Source: Candidatus Zhuqueibacterota bacterium (GTDB lineage Bacteria > BS750m-G25). Taken from it: DNA of 6,085 nt. How positions within the stretch are numbered: position 1 is the stretch's first letter; the number at the start of each line of letters is the position of its first letter. The stretch lies in NCBI GenBank assembly GCA_016783505.1, contig JADHWK010000084.1, positions 1-6,085 on the forward strand, written 5' to 3'. Below the pieces are notes generated by a model. It saw nothing but the letters and a program-made list of their open reading frames with translations, ran no database searches and had not been told where the DNA came from. A program made the translations under genes and the position numbers. Of this stretch, positions 526 through 6,085 are shown in pieces.

Positions 526-534
526 CTGAGTTGG

Positions 535-596
535 ACATAACGTCTCTTTTCAGCGGGCGCGCTTTTTTGCGTTCCGCTGCAAAAGCATTGTTAGCC
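535..596 (-). repeat. attC recombination site of cassette D (62 bp)
   Basis: On the minus strand the site runs from the R'' box GGCTAAC (596-590, followed by AA) to the R' box GTTATGT (541-535). The inner arms CAGCGG and CCGCTG, with GCGC/GCGT-rich inner parts, fold around an A-rich loop, giving the imperfect hairpin with extrahelical bases that integron integrases bind. The R'' box matches the start of cassette D (TTAGCC at 1302-1297). The extended match ATGGCTAAC/GTTAGCCAT is 9 nt. Confidence 0.92.
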
Positions 597-1302
597 ATTT
601 TAATATTGTGTAAAAGTCTCAACCCCACTACAAAATTGATATCTCATAAAATCACTAAACCCGGTCCATAAAAAATGCTGTGATGTATAGGCGCACTGGA
701 AAATAGATGTTTTCTTTGCAAGTATGGCTGGGTTTAGAAAGGTGGACTCAATATGTTTGCCAACCTCTTTCTTCCGAGGATTTTGAACACCAGGGCATAG
801 AAAATGCCAAATATTAAGACCATCCTTGCTTTTATTCTTAAAATAATCTCCTAAGATTTTGTGATTGATATGACCATATTCTCCATCAATGTTATGTGTA
901 AAAATAATGTCAAAATTGTCAATACTGACTTTATTCAATTTTTGAGTTACCTCAGAAATATTTATGTGGTTTTCATTTTGTGTGTCTACCATAATATTGA
1001 TAAATTCATATTCTAACTTCAGATTATCTGATTGGATCTTATATTCATAAACAGCTTTTTGTAGCTCAATTCCTCGGTCATCATTTTCTTTGTGAGTCGA
1101 AATGAATATCTTCCAATTCCAATCGCTTCTTGAGAGTATGGTTCCCCCCATCCAGATAGTTTCATCATCAGGATGTGCCGAGAAAATCGCAGCTTTTATT
1201 GGCTTTATGTCACTACTTGGTATCAGGAAATTATGTTCTTCGTTATATTTCATCATAGATTTTACCGATTATATCGCACAGTTTCTCGTTGCGGATGGCT
1301 AA
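541..1302 (-). mobile_element. Integron gene cassette D (762 bp, PIG-L deacetylase)
   Basis: The cassette is bounded by the G^TT points at 1303/1302 and 541/540. It holds one gene (1256-600) and its attC (596-535). The stop codon lies 3 nt before the attC R'' box, while a 40-odd-nt leader separates the preceding attC from the start codon. This is the compact single-gene build of classical cassettes. Confidence 0.88.
600..1256 (-). CDS. PIG-L / LmbE family zinc-dependent N-deacetylase
   Basis: A 218-residue protein, about the usual length for a bacterial PIG-L domain. The N-terminal motif AHPDDE (residues 27-32) supplies zinc ligands His28 and Asp31 and the catalytic Asp30. The second motif, TH at 120-121 followed by GEYGH at 125-129 and His132, supplies the third zinc ligand and a catalytic His. 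The end (residues 195-218, FMRY then VETF) resembles the family C-terminus. Known members remove N-acetyl groups from GlcNAc-containing substrates such as GlcNAc-PI, GlcNAc-inositol or sugar-linked intermediates. The substrate here cannot be told. There is no signal peptide, so it is cytoplasmic. Two ATGs stand in tandem (1256 and 1253); neither has a good Shine-Dalgarno sequence. An in-frame stop just upstream (1271-1269) rules out a longer protein. The neighbouring cassettes give no pathway partner. Confidence 0.88.
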   Translation of the reverse strand: MMKYNEEHNFLIPSSDIKPIKAAIFSAHPDDETIWMGGTILSRSDWNWKIFISTHKENDDRGIELQKAVYEYKIQSDNLKLEYEFINIMVDTQNENHINISEVTQKLNKVSIDNFDIIFTHNIDGEYGHINHKILGDYFKNKSKDGLNIWHFLCPGVQNPRKKEVGKHIESTFLNPAILAKKTSIFQCAYTSQHFLWTGFSDFMRYQFCSGVETFTQY

Positions 1303-1368
1303 CGACAGGATCACTTGCGGCTATGGAGCAACAGCGGAATAGCCGTCAAGTGCATCCATTGGTTGGGC
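1297..1368 (-). repeat. attC recombination site of cassette C (72 bp)
   Basis: On the minus strand the site runs from R'' GCCCAAC (1368-1362) to R' GTTAGCC (1303-1297). The inner arms CACTTGACGGCTAT and ATAGCCGCAAGTG pair with a single extrahelical base, around a loop rich in GCTGTTGCTCC. R'' complements the TTGGGC that opens cassette C at 3585-3580, 2.2 kb away, which ties the three intervening genes into one cassette. Confidence 0.92.
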
Positions 1369-1390
1369 GAATTAAGTATTGTCCCCAGAA
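1369..1390. repeat. REP-like inverted repeat, copy at the 3' end of cassette C
   Basis: The 22-nt sequence, beginning GAATTAAGTATTGTCCCC on the plus strand, matches the reverse complement of 3544-3565 at 21 of 22 positions. On the transcribed strand it ends exactly where the attC R'' box of cassette C begins (1368). From memory, GGGGACA...TTAATTC motifs of this kind are dispersed REP-type repeats in many environmental proteobacteria, often linked to IS200-like/RAYT Y1 transposases. No such transposase is present here. Confidence 0.7.
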
Positions 1391-1492: not shown

Positions 1493-2086
1493 TCATTTTT
1501 TAATAAACTCAACCAGTTCTGTATCCGTAGATATTTCCTTGATCATAGCCACGAGGGCCTGATTCAGCGAGCTCTTCCATCCTGCTAATCCACCGCCCGT
1601 AGTATATGCTCCTTCGTATGACTTCATAAAAACACCTTTTTCTGTGGGTATACAGCTAATCATTATTTTCACACCAGTATGAGCAGTTTGGTTAGTAGAA
1701 AAAAGGCGTTGCTGAACTCTATATGTAAAATCGTAGATACTTCCTTCAACGATGAAATCTGCCTTAACATCCGACGAAATATTGACAAATTTGTGACCGT
1801 TTCTTTCCAATTCTTTTCTTATCTGATTGGCTACAAACGTTGTTATCGGTTGATCTAATACCAATGTATGCGCACCCACTTGTGCCACTAAAGCTGGATC
1901 GTCAACATTTCTGACACGCTTAAATTCTTTGAAAGCAAAGGTTTTGGAAGGCACGCCACGCAATGGGCTACCCGTCTGCAATGTAGAGAAATCACTGGTT
2001 TTCAGAATATGGGTACATCCCGTAACTAATAAGATTGCGACCATTAATGATACGATACTATGTGGGTAACTGCTGCGACCTTTCAT
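1493..2086 (-). CDS. Putative lipoprotein, YajG-like (third gene of cassette C)
   Basis: A 197-residue protein with a signal peptide (hydrophobic core about residues 10-21) and lipobox LVTGC, so it is probably lipidated at Cys24 and membrane-anchored in the periplasm. The mature part has a strand around FAFKEF (50-55), then a long helix with IRKELERNGHKFV (89-101), then the strand ADFIVEGSIYDF (109-120), and a final region with a TTGGGLAGW turn and a C-terminal helix. This order (helix, G-x-x-F, D-x-I-V-x-G) resembles YajG-type and TolB-N-like periplasmic lipoproteins; the family match is by pattern only. The start is firm: AAGGAGG at 2099-2093 with a 6-nt spacer. That Shine-Dalgarno overlaps the stop codon of the upstream gene (gap 11 nt), which favours co-translation. 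The molecular role is unknown. Confidence 0.85.
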   Translation of the reverse strand: MKGRSSYPHSIVSLMVAILLVTGCTHILKTSDFSTLQTGSPLRGVPSKTFAFKEFKRVRNVDDPALVAQVGAHTLVLDQPITTFVANQIRKELERNGHKFVNISSDVKADFIVEGSIYDFTYRVQQRLFSTNQTAHTGVKIMISCIPTEKGVFMKSYEGAYTTGGGLAGWKSSLNQALVAMIKEISTDTELVEFIKK

Positions 2087-2092
2087 TTTTCA

Positions 2093-2099
2093 CCTCCTT
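2093..2099 (-). promoter_or_regulatory. Consensus ribosome binding site overlapping the preceding stop codon
   Basis: AAGGAGG on the minus strand lies 6 nt before the ATG at 2086. It overlaps the TAA (2100-2098) of the preceding gene, so ribosomes ending there are placed on the next initiation site. This supports an operon and fixes the start. Confidence 0.85.
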
Positions 2100-2865
2100 A
2101 CTTAAGATATACGAAATCATAAGCCAGGTTTTGCCCGGCCTTCTCTATGATCGCGTCGAGCTCTTTCAATCCGTTTTCTTTATAATAGTTAAGTGTATGT
2201 ACTTCAGGAGATGACAGAACTTCCTCTCGGTCCCATACTATTTTCCCTGAGCGCAGGTACGTCAATTGACCCTGCACGTGGATCTGGAGGCCAAAATTAT
2301 CACCAGCAAGGTGAGTAAGGGAAATATTTTTGATGACCAACCGGATTACGGCATTATAACCTGCGTCCGATAATTGGTGGTCGTCATTAATCTTGTTCTT
2401 TATATAGTCAACACGATCAAAGCACGAAGCCTTTCTGATGGGTGTGGTAAAAGCTTGAACAATTTTATCTTCAATGCTGCTTATATCGATTTTGGTTCCT
2501 ATTTCTTTAGCAGATGCACTGTCTGTGTGCGCCCTTTCTGCGGCAGTCCCAATAGCAACATAAGGCAATATAAGAAGAGGTGCGAGTACTGCAATCGCAA
2601 GACCTAGACCGGCTGCGCCCGTACCTTCCTGCGTGGCAGGAGTTACATCCAGGGCGTTGGCTGAAGCAAGAATTGCCACTTTTTTGATGCTCGAAAGGCT
2701 GTTGCTCGTCAGGTAAGTTTCTTTTGGAGGAGCCGATGCGCAGGAAACAAGGAGCAATGCCATGCAGATACATAGACATCGGCGCAATCGCATTTTCATC
2801 AAGGCATTCATCCTGGGAACACGGGTTGAATCGTTAGCTTTAACTATAAACCAGATGAGCCTCAT
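2098..2865 (-). CDS. Putative lipoprotein with internal hydrophobic segment (second gene of cassette C)
   Basis: A 255-residue protein. The lipobox LLVSC puts the lipidated Cys at residue 42, preceded by a Leu/Met/Cys-rich core (about 30-41). After it come the strand IKKVAIL (60-66) and a Gly/Ala-rich hydrophobic stretch (83-109, GAAGLGLAIAVLAPLLILPY) that could insert in a membrane or form a glycine-zipper hairpin. Then follow a helix, CFDRV (148-152), a strand around VIRLVIKNISL (173-183), a turn GKIVWDREE, and a C-terminal helix. I do not recognise the family. The start at 2865 has AAGGGAG with an 8-nt spacer, which gives an unusually long 29-residue N-region. Met19, Met23 or Met25 would give a conventional signal peptide but lack good ribosome sites. 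It lies 62 nt after the first gene of the cassette and 11 nt before the third. Confidence 0.85.
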   Translation of the reverse strand: MRLIWFIVKANDSTRVPRMNALMKMRLRRCLCICMALLLVSCASAPPKETYLTSNSLSSIKKVAILASANALDVTPATQEGTGAAGLGLAIAVLAPLLILPYVAIGTAAERAHTDSASAKEIGTKIDISSIEDKIVQAFTTPIRKASCFDRVDYIKNKINDDHQLSDAGYNAVIRLVIKNISLTHLAGDNFGLQIHVQGQLTYLRSGKIVWDREEVLSSPEVHTLNYYKENGLKELDAIIEKAGQNLAYDFVYLK

Positions 2866-2873
2866 CTTTTTAT

Positions 2874-2880
2874 CTCCCTT
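2874..2880 (-). promoter_or_regulatory. Ribosome binding site favouring the far upstream start
   Basis: AAGGGAG on the minus strand, 8 nt before the ATG at 2865. It is the only good Shine-Dalgarno near the alternative starts of this lipoprotein gene, so it favours the long N-terminal form. The start codon sits inside a 15-bp near-palindrome (2853-2867, AGATGAG and CTCATCT around one base). Confidence 0.65.
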
Positions 2881-2910
2881 CTTTTATGTGATCCTTCCTC
2901 AATAGTTCAG

Positions 2911-2928
2911 ATGCAGACTCCTCTGCAT
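2911..2928 (-). other. Intercistronic hairpin with GGAG loop
   Basis: On the minus strand ATGCAGA and TCTGCAT form a perfect 7-bp stem around the 4-nt loop GGAG. It starts at the stop codon of the first gene of cassette C (TAA at 2930-2928) and lies in the 62-nt gap before the second. No T-run follows, so it is not a standard terminator. It could be an mRNA processing or stability element that sets unequal levels of the two proteins. Confidence 0.5.
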
Positions 2929-3467
2929 TACTTGGCACGTAAGTTTTGTGCTTGTTGATTGAGTTCATCGAGGAAGGCTTCAGTACGTGGAACTCCTTGG
3001 GGTTTGTTTTTATCAAGCATCACCGGTAATATTAGTAATTTGCTTTTCCCTTTGATGAACCAACCATCGACATCACTGAATATAATAAAATCGCTATTAC
3101 CAATAGGATAGGATGCCGGGTTGCCATTATGGCGCGCGACAGAAACAGAATCAAATATGCGTCGTTTGGCTATAGCATCTACATTGAATTGATAAGCATT
3201 TCGACTAACAGCGGTGAAGAAATCGATTTGTTCTTGGCTAACTCTGGTCCCGCTAAAAGCTTTGATCAAACGTTTCTGTATTTCAACGTCCGATGGGATA
3301 ATAATCAGGGCTGCACCTCCCACAGGATTTTGATTAGGCTTTATCTCTTTGATAATGTTAGAATATATTTCTGTATTCTTTTGAAGTAGTTCGGAATGAT
3401 TCAAACCGCAGGCAATTAAAAACATGAATGTTATAACTATAAAAGTAACCAGAGTTAATCTTCTCAT
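2928..3467 (-). CDS. Putative lipoprotein (first gene of cassette C)
   Basis: A 179-residue protein with a short signal peptide and lipobox FLIAC, lipidated Cys20. The mature protein has a helical stretch (about 25-42), then the strand AALIIIP (52-58) and a helix (61-71). The region around RIFDSV (103-108) is followed by the strand SDFIIFSDVDGWF (125-137), a further strand KSKLLILPVML, and a charged C-terminal helix. No family is recognised, but the strand-helix-FxxV-strand order is shared with the other five lipoproteins of the window. The start is well supported by GGGAGGGG at 3480-3473 just upstream. It is the first gene of the three-lipoprotein cassette, 112 nt after the preceding attC. 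That leader holds one copy of the REP-like repeat. A subunit of a complex with the next two lipoproteins is possible but unproven. Confidence 0.85.
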   Translation of the reverse strand: MRRLTLVTFIVITFMFLIACGLNHSELLQKNTEIYSNIIKEIKPNQNPVGGAALIIIPSDVEIQKRLIKAFSGTRVSQEQIDFFTAVSRNAYQFNVDAIAKRRIFDSVSVARHNGNPASYPIGNSDFIIFSDVDGWFIKGKSKLLILPVMLDKNKPQGVPRTEAFLDELNQQAQNLRAK

Positions 3468-3543
3468 GGAGTCCCCTCCCTACTTTATGTTATCTCCTGT
3501 CGGGCTGGATGCCTATCAGCGGTTGGCCCCATAATAAGAATAG

Positions 3544-3565
3544 TTCTGGGGACAATACTCAATTC
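3544..3565. repeat. REP-like inverted repeat, copy at the 5' end of cassette C
   Basis: The plus strand begins TTCTGGGGACAATACTCAAT. It is the inverted partner of 1369-1390, differing at one position of 22. It lies 14 nt inside the attC R' box (3586-3580), in the leader of the three-gene operon. With the other copy it brackets almost the whole cassette, about 2.2 kb. Confidence 0.75.
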
Positions 3566-3579
3566 AACCATTTCTTTCG

Positions 3580-3670
3580 GCCCAACGACCTAAATCAGCG
3601 GCGGGGCTACGACATTTGCTGAAAATCGCACCGCGGCTTATTCCCCGTCCGCTGGATTTGCTTGTTAGGC
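3580..3670 (-). repeat. attC recombination site of cassette B (91 bp)
   Basis: On the minus strand the site runs from R'' GCCTAAC (3670-3664, followed by AA) to R' GTTGGGC (3586-3580). The outer stem CAGCGGACGGGG pairs with CCCCGCCGCTG with one extrahelical base. A longer central loop contains GCCGCGGTGCGATTTTCAGC. R'' complements the TTAGGC that opens cassette B at 4484-4479. The outer-stem sequence is nearly the same as in the attC at 4479-4541. Confidence 0.92.
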
Positions 3671-3694
3671 ATTTAATACTGTTCATTTGTCAAA

Positions 3695-3740
3695 TGTTAA
3701 GACTTGACACCAATCTCTTCTCATGTCAAGACCTGACACC
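3695..3740. repeat. Direct repeat pair, TGTCAAGACCTGACACC type
   Basis: TGTTAAGACTTGACACC (3695-3711) and TGTCAAGACCTGACACC (3724-3740) match at 15 of 17 positions, 29 nt apart start to start. A 9-nt inverted partner GTCTTGACA lies at 3780-3788, just after the stop codon of the cassette B gene, and could pair with 3724-3732. From memory this motif is another dispersed REP-type repeat. Its position in the 3' region suggests an mRNA 3'-end stability or transcript-end element, but no standard terminator is evident. Confidence 0.65.
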
Positions 3741-3793
3741 TTTTCCACCTTTATTGGTTATGCTTCCTGATTCATTCTTGTCTTGACAAAAAC

Positions 3794-4420
3794 TTACTTA
3801 CTCGCGCTTAGAATCTGGTCATTCATTTTTTCCAAGGCATACACCAAGCTACCCCTGACTGATTCGATAAGTTCAAATTTCCCGGCGCTTCCGGCTTGGA
3901 AACCTCCCATAGCACCGCCGCCGCCACCACGATAACCGATCTCTTTAGAATATTGCCCAACAGATGATCCCTCCGTTAATACGGACCAATTCTTATCATA
4001 TAATTTATAGACTAATTCTGTTGTGCTTGACCATTCTTTTACCGCAAGGGGGAAAATTTTTGTCGTCCTCAACTCAATGTCAGTCTTCTGACCAAATTCA
4101 ATTGTAATGATTCTGTCAATATCTTGAGGTGCTTTGTTTTTATCTATAAAAAGAGAAACAGATGAAAAGACTTTTCCCAAAGATGCAACAGCTTCCGATT
4201 CAATAGCTTCACCTAGCAAAGCTTTATTAATACCTACTCCCACAGGCATCATATAAGCCTTCGTTTTATCGCTGAGGTAGAGGCCTGCTTTAAGAGGTAT
4301 TATTTCTGATCTGCCCGTATACGAAGCTAAGTCGCGCTTAATGACGTATCTTTCTCCCTGACAGCTCATTAAAAAAGTTAAAATCATTAACACTAATAAA
4401 CCGATATTTTTTAGTTTCAT
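3794..4420 (-). CDS. Putative lipoprotein with Gly-rich loop (cassette B)
   Basis: A 208-residue protein with signal peptide core IGLLVLMILTFL and lipobox LMSC, lipidated Cys20. The mature part has a strand AGLYLSD (45-51), a helix ALLGEAIESEAVASLGKVF (67-85), VFSSV (84-88), the strand IDRIITIEFG (101-110), and the strand TTELVYKLYDK (133-143). Next comes SSVGQY, then a run of five glycines (165-169) in GGGGGAMGGF, and a C-terminal helix. The Gly-rich turn before a last helix recalls the VGFMGGFGGDS segment of the DUF4410-like protein of cassette A, so the two may be distant relatives. No named family is recognised. The start is clear: GAGGAGG at 4435-4429 with an 8-nt spacer. It is the only gene of its cassette. 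Confidence 0.85.
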   Translation of the reverse strand: MKLKNIGLLVLMILTFLMSCQGERYVIKRDLASYTGRSEIIPLKAGLYLSDKTKAYMMPVGVGINKALLGEAIESEAVASLGKVFSSVSLFIDKNKAPQDIDRIITIEFGQKTDIELRTTKIFPLAVKEWSSTTELVYKLYDKNWSVLTEGSSVGQYSKEIGYRGGGGGAMGGFQAGSAGKFELIESVRGSLVYALEKMNDQILSASK

Positions 4421-4478
4421 CGTCGCGTCCTCCTCACCTTATTATTTCAAAGTAATTATGCAAAAATTAATCTTGCGG

Positions 4479-4541
4479 GCCTAACGCATAAGGTCAGCGG
4501 CGGGCAGCTTTTTGCCCGTCCGCTGTAGTGAGTTGTTAGGC
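4479..4541 (-). repeat. attC recombination site of cassette A (63 bp)
   Basis: On the minus strand the site runs from R'' GCCTAACAA (4541-4533) to R' GCGTTAGGC (4487-4479). The stem CAGCGG-A-CGGGC pairs with GCCCG-CCGCTG around an AAAAAGCT loop, with one extrahelical A, a textbook short attC close in form to those of mobile-integron cassettes. R'' complements the TTAGGC opening cassette A at 5948-5943. Confidence 0.95.
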
Positions 4542-4558
4542 AAAATAAATCTGTCCCC
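4542..4558. repeat. REP-like GGGGACAGATTTATTTT motif abutting attC
   Basis: On the transcribed strand GGGGACAGATTTATTTT ends exactly at the R'' box of the cassette A attC (4541). Its outer ten bases (4542-4551) are the inverse of 4600-4609, which overlaps the stop codon of the last gene, so a long AT-rich stem with a 48-nt loop is possible. It has the same GGGGACA core and the same position relative to attC as 1369-1390 in cassette C. Confidence 0.65.
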
Positions 4559-4602
4559 TTTTACGTTTTATAGATACAAGTCACAAAGAACAAATGATCG
4601 AT

Positions 4603-5253
4603 TTATTTTGACAAAACAGAAACATAATCATGCATAAAGTCATTCATCATTTCTGTTGCTAGGTTGTTACAGGCAATTTTGAGCATGACTTCATGAATTT
4701 GCTCCTGTGGAATTACACTCTTATCCTTCTCCTCACTCATTATAGTATGTTTTTTCTCCCAAATACTCTTTGAAGTTCTTGCATCAACGATTTTCAAATT
4801 TGCTGATGCAATAGCATAACCTTCCCAATTAGTATTGGCAAAACCTAGTGCTATGGGTGAGGTTACAATAAAGGCAGTAAAATAGGCTATAGCTATATTC
4901 CTATCACCTGCATTTGAACCAGCTACAAACTTGTCTATTTCACCAGTGATAATATAATCAATACTTTCCTGTACTGATGAGTCGATATCTTCATTCACTG
5001 AACGATTATAAATAACCTGAAATCCCTTAGATCCTTCTAAGCATTCTTTAACCGTCTGCTTGAAACATTCCCCGCCTTGGTTCTTGAATCCTTTTATTAA
5101 TACATTTTTTACTTTTGTAAATCCGCTCAGATATTTCCGTTCCGTTAATTTCGTCGTTGGTTGAAAATTCGTGGAACAACCATATAAAGAAATCAGGATT
5201 AAAATTATGAACAACCTTAAGTTTCTCAAATACTTATAATTATTCACATTCAT
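4603..5253 (-). CDS. Putative lipoprotein with internal hydrophobic segment (second gene of cassette A)
   Basis: A 216-residue protein with a signal peptide (core LFIILILISLYG) and lipobox LYGC, lipidated Cys26. The mature protein has the strand VKNVLIKGF (48-56), a helix with Cys63 and Cys71, GFQVIYNRS (77-85), then the strand IDYIITGEIDKF (98-109). A hydrophobic stretch follows (120-139, IAIAYFTAFIVTSPIALGFA), then a strand ASANLKIVDA with a SIWEKKH turn (compare KIVWDREE in the second gene of cassette C), and a C-terminal helix. The D-x-I-I-x-G-x-I strand is typical of TolB-N/CsgG-like and related periplasmic lipoproteins; no exact family is recognised. The start is the only Met before the signal peptide, with GGTGG at 5262-5258 and a short 4-nt spacer. 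It follows the DUF4410-like gene by 25 nt, probably co-transcribed. Confidence 0.85.
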   Translation of the reverse strand: MNVNNYKYLRNLRLFIILILISLYGCSTNFQPTTKLTERKYLSGFTKVKNVLIKGFKNQGGECFKQTVKECLEGSKGFQVIYNRSVNEDIDSSVQESIDYIITGEIDKFVAGSNAGDRNIAIAYFTAFIVTSPIALGFANTNWEGYAIASANLKIVDARTSKSIWEKKHTIMSEEKDKSVIPQEQIHEVMLKIACNNLATEMMNDFMHDYVSVLSK

Positions 5254-5278
5254 ATATCCACCAGTTGTTAATCCTATA

Positions 5279-5914
5279 TTATTGTGCCTTCTCTATCTTT
5301 CCACCAGTCGAAATACGTTTCATAAATGAAGCTTGACCTTCCGCAATCAGATTTAGAAAGTTTATTAGAAAATCTTTACTATCGCCACCGAATCCGCCCA
5401 TAAATCCGACACGTCTATCAGATGATTTATAAAGGATCTTTTTTGTTTCTGGTGCTCGGATATCTATTTCAACTTGAGCCTTTGCTGCTCCTGCACCAAA
5501 ACCGACAAAATATCTTAATGCTCTATTACCAGGTTCTAATTCTGAAAGAGATGACTCCAAAACAAGGGTTTTTCCAGTCTGCTTATTAGGGTCTGAAATA
5601 GCAGCGGTGTCATCAGTAACTTTAGTAAATAATCCGGTATTATTCATATTTTTGATTAATTGCTTTATAAAATAAATATTTAGCTCTTCAAGATCAATAT
5701 CAGTTTTTGGTATATTTGGCGAAATAGGTAAGCCAGATATGATTAAAGTTTCATACCCTTTAAAATCAAAACCTGGGGATAAATATACCATCCCAGCATC
5801 TTTATCTTCTATCATCTGAAAATCTTTATGAGAAATATTTTCTACGGGAGTCATTCTATGAGCACCACAACCAATAAGTGACAACAACAATAAAGCTAAA
5901 ACAATCTTTTTCAT
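5279..5914 (-). CDS. DUF4410-like lipoprotein (first gene of cassette A)
   Basis: A protein of 211 residues from the chosen start, with signal peptide MKKIVLALLLLSLIG and lipidated Cys16. The segment FDFKGYETLIISG starts the folded part, then come a helix ending in GLFTKV (94-99), the strand TLVLESSLSEL (116-126), and GNRALRYFVGFGAG (129-142). That last motif, followed by a strand VEIDIR and the K-I-L-Y-K-S-S turn, is characteristic of DUF4410 proteins, small periplasmic lipoproteins of unknown function. DRRVGFMGGFGGDS (166-179) and a C-terminal helix complete it. Three in-frame ATGs exist (5932, 5920, 5914). I chose 5914 because AAGGAGA at 5927-5921 lies at proper distance only from it; the first ATG has no ribosome site. 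It is probably translated first in the two-gene cassette and may act with its neighbour. Confidence 0.87.
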   Translation of the reverse strand: MKKIVLALLLLSLIGCGAHRMTPVENISHKDFQMIEDKDAGMVYLSPGFDFKGYETLIISGLPISPNIPKTDIDLEELNIYFIKQLIKNMNNTGLFTKVTDDTAAISDPNKQTGKTLVLESSLSELEPGNRALRYFVGFGAGAAKAQVEIDIRAPETKKILYKSSDRRVGFMGGFGGDSKDFLINFLNLIAEGQASFMKRISTGGKIEKAQ

Positions 5915-5927: not shown

Positions 5928-5942
5928 TTCATTTTTATTAGG

Positions 5943-6070
5943 GCCTAACGGGCAGCGAGATGAGCCGCCGTCGGTTGGGGGCGGAAATTGCATGCTAATG
6001 CAATTTTCCGTGCCAACCGACCGAGCGGAGCGAAGCCCGGAGGGGGTCGGCTCGATTGAGTTTGATAGGC
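5943..6070 (-). repeat. Long, degenerate attC-like site preceding cassette A (about 128 bp)
   Basis: On the minus strand it ends in a good R' box GTTAGGC (5949-5943), which opens cassette A. The opposite box is GCCTATC (6070-6064), with T where RYYYAAC needs A, followed by AA. The arms share GAGCCG/CGGCTC. Nested inside is a strong hairpin: CGGTTGG with CCAACCG, and CGGAAATTGCAT (5982-5993) with ATGCAATTTTCCG (5998-6010), one bulged base, TAGC-type loop. The extra 30-odd bases around 6018-6050 are GC-rich and unpaired in this scheme. The upstream cassette it belongs to lies outside the window. Confidence 0.7.
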
Positions 6071-6085
6071 GGAGCGCCTTTGGCG

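Follow-up and report, generated by a model that had tools for sequence, protein, structure and literature searches.

The 6,085-nucleotide contig JADHWK010000084.1 of Candidatus Zhuqueibacterota bacterium, analyzed here over its whole length and referred to as the window, carries an array of integron cassettes, three of which encode six lipoproteins designated as A–F. All genes discussed are on the minus strand. Proteins A (5279–5914) and B (4603–5253) share one cassette, C (3794–4420) is the sole gene of the second, and D (2928–3467), E (2098–2865) and F (1493–2086) form the third. The recombination sites (attC) that bound the cassettes were numbered att1–att6, and the array reads att6, A-B, att5, C, att4, D-E-F, att3, a PIG-L-type deacetylase gene, att2, the open reading frame (ORF) 525–49 and a partial att1. 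A preliminary description of this DNA had placed six lipoproteins in three adjacent cassettes, and this arrangement was confirmed: the six co-oriented ORFs were found at the coordinates it gave, each has a lipobox, and attC sites bound the cassettes.

On the coding strand, each of five attC sites starts with RYYYAAC or a close variant, forms an imperfect stem and ends with GTTRRRY. The attC of the A-B cassette is att5 (4477–4543, minus strand, GCCTAAC...GCGTTAGGC), that of the C cassette is att4 (3578–3672, minus strand, GCCTAAC...CGTTGGGC) and that of the D-E-F cassette is att3 (1297–1372, minus strand, GCCCAAC...CGTTAGCC), and all three form hairpins; att2 (533–598, minus strand, GGCTAAC...CGTTATGTC) belongs to the deacetylase cassette. 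Ahead of the A-B cassette lies att6 (5940–6072, minus strand), a VCR-like site of about 130 nt with the ends GCCTATC...CGTTAGGC and a long stem on the plus strand, which gave only a weak and partial match to our attC covariance model. This model was built from the window sites, with training copies evened in length and apical loops trimmed, and its matches in the window confirm the form only, because they are the very sites from which it was made. Beyond the window, and independently of the training sites, the model found eight further contigs of this genome with attC-like sites. The genes near them are mixed (a methyltransferase, an HNH protein, membrane proteins and one lipoprotein), indicating that the cassettes of this genome carry more than lipoproteins. 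No integron integrase match in the genome exceeded the cut-off and none was complete, while contig C44 (L043, 2866–3190) contains an integrase remnant in which C-terminal homology comes immediately after an IntI-like N-terminus but in a different frame; an attC-like site lies at a distance of 5.7 kb. Judged from these sequence features, the window carries a true array of integron cassettes. The attC-like sites on the other contigs (L041–L048) are single or paired and often lie between ordinary chromosomal genes; one is beside a dnaB-like gene on contig C2.

All six proteins have a signal sequence and an LxxC-type lipobox (LIGC in A, LYGC in B, LMSC in C, LIAC in D, LVSC in E and VTGC in F). 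In E. coli, lipoproteins that lack Asp at position +2 are sorted to the outer membrane. The residue at +2 is G, S, Q, G, A and T in A to F, respectively, and Asp in none of them, and therefore all six are probably sorted to the outer membrane. Within the cassettes, the coordinates leave gaps of 25 nt between A and B, 62 nt between D and E and 11 nt between E and F, and Shine-Dalgarno-like sequences precede A (at 5914), C, D, E and F; the tight spacing and these sequences appear as in small operons. Protein A has an alternative in-frame start at 5932, and AGGAGA precedes the ATG at 5914. Promoter and terminator scans remained at chance level, and an Rfam search gave no match. Signal peptides have been found in 13.2% and 11.6% of cassette proteins (PMC9668308, PMC12444791). 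Although the six lipoproteins count as about three events, because genes within one cassette travel together, their presence in six of six genes across three consecutive cassettes is notable.

Protein A is a member of DUF4410 (PF14366, E = 2.3e-9, 37.8 bits against a Pfam cut-off of 26), a family present in 4 of 153 diverse genomes and, in the source genome, confined to this array. Five homologues from Rokubacteria are 29–34% identical to A over the whole protein, and the DUF4410 proteins of Rokubacteria and Methylomirabilota resemble A in the EDKDAG, PGFD, GLFxxV and GAGxAxAQ motifs and in the lipobox position. An AlphaFold2 model of A, built on its alignment with the five Rokubacteria homologues, reached a pLDDT of 77.7 and a pTM of 0.73. 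It comprises strand 56–60, helix 75–93, strand 98–101 at FTKV, strand 116–127 at TLVLESSL, strands 144–154 and 159–170, and helix 179–202. With this model, Foldseek returned PelC (1.6e-8) as well as HpaA, CsgG, FlgT, XCC0632, GNA1162 and others. VIA-align gave Z scores of 11.9 for PelC, 10.4 for decameric TraT, 10.3 for FlgT, 10.2 for HpaA, 9.8 for PqiC and 9.5 for CsgG, with further TraT rows at 10.0 and 9.9; LptE (about 8.5) and TolB (7.6) scored lower. Scores below about 8 may reflect a common arrangement only, but the top rows exceed this value and cover most of the domain. A is thus predicted to fold as the alpha/beta domain common to PelC, TraT, CsgG, FlgT, PqiC and HpaA. The resemblance to PelC (5t10, 5t11, 5t0z) extends to its being an outer-membrane lipoprotein, whereas identity is about 10% and there are no Pel genes nearby. 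TraT resembles A in fold, in being a lipoprotein and in its location on mobile DNA; however, the two are about 6% identical, and no conjugation genes lie near A. In sequence searches against solved structures, neither the single proteins A, B, E and F nor a profile of A gave a significant match.

A search of 95 genomes of the phylum holding A's homologues yielded a single homologue of B, in the genome G387 of the distant phylum Methylomirabilota (28% identical, E = 1.3e-16). Its gene comes immediately after, and overlaps, that of an A homologue, which is 34% identical to A and has GCGAHRMTPV and ALRYFVGFGAGAAKAQ in common with it. No attC-like site was found in 17 kb of DNA at the G387 pair, and its recognizable neighbors look like ordinary chromosomal genes. 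What the A-B cassette carries is therefore a two-gene unit that also occurs outside integrons, and it shows that an entire small operon can fit into one cassette. Between its predicted strands 3 and 4, B contains a 19-residue hydrophobic segment (IAIAYFTAFIVTSPIALGF, hydropathy 1.9), which is conserved in the G387 homologue. B aligns with A weakly, in register, over strands 4–5 and the last helix. The best Pfam match of B, to the GNA1162-like family (PF05643, 0.0034), covers the strand 4–5 region and at 17.4 bits is below the cut-off of 25.9; GNA1162 also matches A structurally, whereas the G387 homologue of B had no hit at all. DUF4410 was not mentioned by name in the literature searched, and the pairing of DUF4410 with B is apparently undescribed so far.

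Protein F belongs to Lipoprotein_16, the YajG family (PF03923, E = 2.5e-8, 34.3 bits against a Pfam cut-off of 25). Its alignment with E. coli YajG (25% identical) spans the length of F and includes the C-terminal DTxxxEFIK, but F differs from YajG in being encoded in a three-lipoprotein cassette and not beside bolA. Lipoprotein_16 is present in 2 of 153 diverse genomes and, in the source genome, is confined to this array; a search for F in the 153 genomes found none outside the window. Proteins C, D and E matched no Pfam, NCBIfam or PADLOC family. No homologue outside the window was found for C in 82 genomes and a genome contig collection, or for E in searches of 2, 80 and 1 genomes. E has an internal hydrophobic segment (LGLAIAVLAPLLILPYVAI) with a hydropathy of 2.47 over 19 residues. 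With all six proteins as queries, PADLOC profiles of anti-phage defense systems gave no match at E values up to 1, Pfam at E values up to 1 gave no match to the TraT family, and NCBIfam gave nothing useful. A plasmid collection contained no match to any of the six or to the G387 homologue of B, and a viral contig collection contained no accepted homologue of B–F. The only viral contig hits, obtained with C, were to a phage-type protein sharing the peptide DKTKAYMM and were discarded as chance matches.

The preliminary description had further proposed that the six share one structural plan of low overall identity, marked by F-x-x-V or a similar turn, and form a diverged superfamily of DUF4410, YajG and TolB-N type. 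Low identity was borne out, with no significant pairwise BLASTP match among the six; profile comparison between their family alignments likewise gave no significant match and so did not connect them. The motif is no evidence of relatedness, since F-x-x-V occurs in shuffles of the six proteins with a probability of 0.23–0.64; moreover, it is exact at the proposed place only in A, C, D and E (GFQVI in B and GHKFV in F). Each protein was also scored, against shuffles and 76 unrelated proteins, with blocks built from the other five; the five blocks of this leave-one-out test were, in order, strand 1, helix plus turn, strand 3, strands 4–5 and the last helix. B reached a z score of 3.5, which none of the 76 controls matched. 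The proposed plan (strand-helix-turn-strand-strand-strand-helix) is seen in the predicted structure of A, supported for B and suggested for F by its family assignment. The superfamily likewise stood in part, with A in DUF4410, F in the YajG family and the fold of A matching GNA1162 and TolB-N, but nothing places C, D and E in it. Structure prediction followed by Foldseek, which the description had suggested as a check, gave the PelC-type matches of A; a single-sequence AlphaFold2 model of C had a pLDDT of 33 and was unusable.

The reading that we favor, with roughly even odds (about 0.5), is that the three neighboring cassettes carry ready-made outer-membrane lipoprotein units, which probably oligomerize at the outer membrane. 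The units captured would be the A-B pair, C alone and the D-E-F trio, as small operons. The repeated gathering by one array that the preliminary description had envisaged carries less weight than it suggests: as A-B is a pre-existing pair captured as a unit, about three captures would account for the six genes. For each protein, export and lipidation at the lipobox cysteine would probably be followed by sorting to the outer membrane, where A and B probably form a joint assembly that would act at the envelope; F and probably some of C–E would be related pieces, with a fold common to B–F. PelC and CsgG serve exporters, and PqiC stabilizes a transport bridge. Rings at the outer membrane are formed by twelve PelC subunits (PMC12141448), by octameric PqiC (PMC10897342) and by decameric TraT, an outer-membrane lipoprotein anchored by three amphipathic membrane helices per subunit (PMC11733297). 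Because TraT anchors its ring with membrane helices, membrane insertion by B and E is a reasonable inference, and the conserved hydrophobic segment of B may dip into the membrane like the extra helices of TraT.

Several points weigh against this reading. No relatives of C, D and E were detected, A alone gave a usable structural model, and its predicted fold match demonstrates neither oligomerization nor function. Of the six, B alone passed the leave-one-out test, which is of low power: the known fold members LptE, TolB, PqiC and LpoB were also poorly separated from the controls, so that failure of A, C, D, E and F says little. The examined DNA around the five Rokubacteria homologues of A contains neither B nor an attC-like site, unlike the cassette in the window, and A can thus occur without B. 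The integrase is absent from the window, where the contig ends. The window is one entire contig of a metagenome-assembled genome, and the assignment of a 6-kb contig to a bin that is only 60% complete (2.5 Mb, 89 contigs) is uncertain; the contig could be misbinned, which would leave the conclusions on the array itself unaffected.

The best surviving alternative, which we consider a tentative but serious one, is a mixed set of lipoproteins, in which membership of the PelC/CsgG/TraT-type superfamily is limited to A, with B and F as possible further members. The resemblance of C, D and E would then be no more than the alternation of strands and helices generic to small alpha/beta proteins, and the lipoproteins would cluster because integron cassettes are known to be enriched in exported proteins. 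The absence of pairwise and profile similarity among the six, the failure of C, D and E in the leave-one-out test and the chance level of F-x-x-V are consistent with this alternative, as are signal peptides in 11–13% of cassette proteins (PMC9668308, PMC12444791). However, a test that also misses PqiC, LpoB and TolB is uninformative when failed, and lipoproteins in three consecutive cassettes exceed the published signal-peptide rate even when counted as three events.

It is also possible, though rather doubtful, that the proteins are accessory parts of export or envelope-transport machines, resembling PelC, CsgG, PqiC, LptE or LpoB and forming rings or docks that would serve an exporter of polysaccharide, lipid or protein whose genes lie elsewhere in the host. 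PelC is the best match of A, PqiC, CsgG, LptE and FlgT match as well, and the rings of PelC and PqiC serve transport (PMC12141448, PMC10897342). On the other hand, no exporter, beta-barrel or glycosyltransferase gene is present in the window or was recognized beside the G387 pair, and a mobile cassette must fit whatever partner a new host offers. A self-sufficient surface assembly would agree slightly better with the mobile setting and with the lack of an exporter gene close by. Against this preference, PelC scores at least as well as TraT against the model of A, and by hydropathy A has no strongly hydrophobic internal segment or helix of its own.

The same two points reduce the case for surface exclusion or envelope defense, which we regard as improbable. 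Here the proteins would act as TraT-like plugs against contact toxins, phage adsorption or conjugation, and the importance of specificity would explain their exchange on cassettes. In structure, TraT ranks with the best matches of A; it is a mobile-element lipoprotein with plasmid-specific exclusion (PMC11733297), and the internal hydrophobic segments of B and E recall its membrane helices; however, neither the TraT family nor PADLOC was matched, and the A-B pair of G387 sits among ordinary chromosomal genes. The roles in defense or immunity and the selection for variability put forward in the preliminary description found no backing in these results. Least probable of all, and in our view very unlikely, is the broadest version, that integrons circulate multi-subunit outer-membrane lipoprotein assemblies of one diverged superfamily, in two- and three-gene cassettes, as exchangeable TraT-like plugs against conjugation, phages or contact toxins.

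For most genes in integron cassettes no function is known, and among their products exported proteins recur as an unexplained fraction whose enrichment is already known. The cassettes described here resemble those known for exported proteins in being attC-bounded and co-oriented, mostly of unknown function and enriched in signal peptides (PMC9668308, PMC12444791), but differ in that two of them hold two and three tightly spaced lipoprotein genes. Three points are new: structure prediction places a lipoprotein encoded in a cassette in the PelC/CsgG/TraT-type fold, DUF4410 and B form a conserved pair, and single cassettes carry two and three lipoprotein genes. Together they give rise to the testable hypothesis that outer-membrane oligomers are delivered as cassettes.

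The remaining features of the window lie mainly around these cassettes. The PIG-L-type deacetylase (1256–600, minus strand; PF02585, 2e-9) forms a cassette of its own adjoining the lipoprotein cassettes, and beyond att2 the ORF list contains the ORF 525–49 on the minus strand. The D-E-F genes are enclosed by a 27-nt inverted pair (1364–1390 and 3544–3570) that has the core TTCTGGGGACAATACT, is 89% complementary and lies just inside the flanking attC sites, as if the trio had once been a separate insert; no copies of it were found in the other eight contig stretches read. Between att4 and gene C, a repeat of the GACTTGACAC / GACCTGACAC type occurs twice in tandem (3695–3740). Short dispersed TGTCCCC repeats are often present in environmental genomes, and AAATCTGTCCCCTTTTA at 4549–4566, directly after att5, resembles them. 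On another contig stretch, L045, two near-identical small ORFs (PMTFEGKDYEIRVLYDDTTINVAAFLNNHPANCFRHQLKIPKNFNVK...; 4348–4614 and 5906–6166) lie about 1.5 kb apart; the first adjoins an attC-like site, and the pair is probably a duplicated cassette gene.

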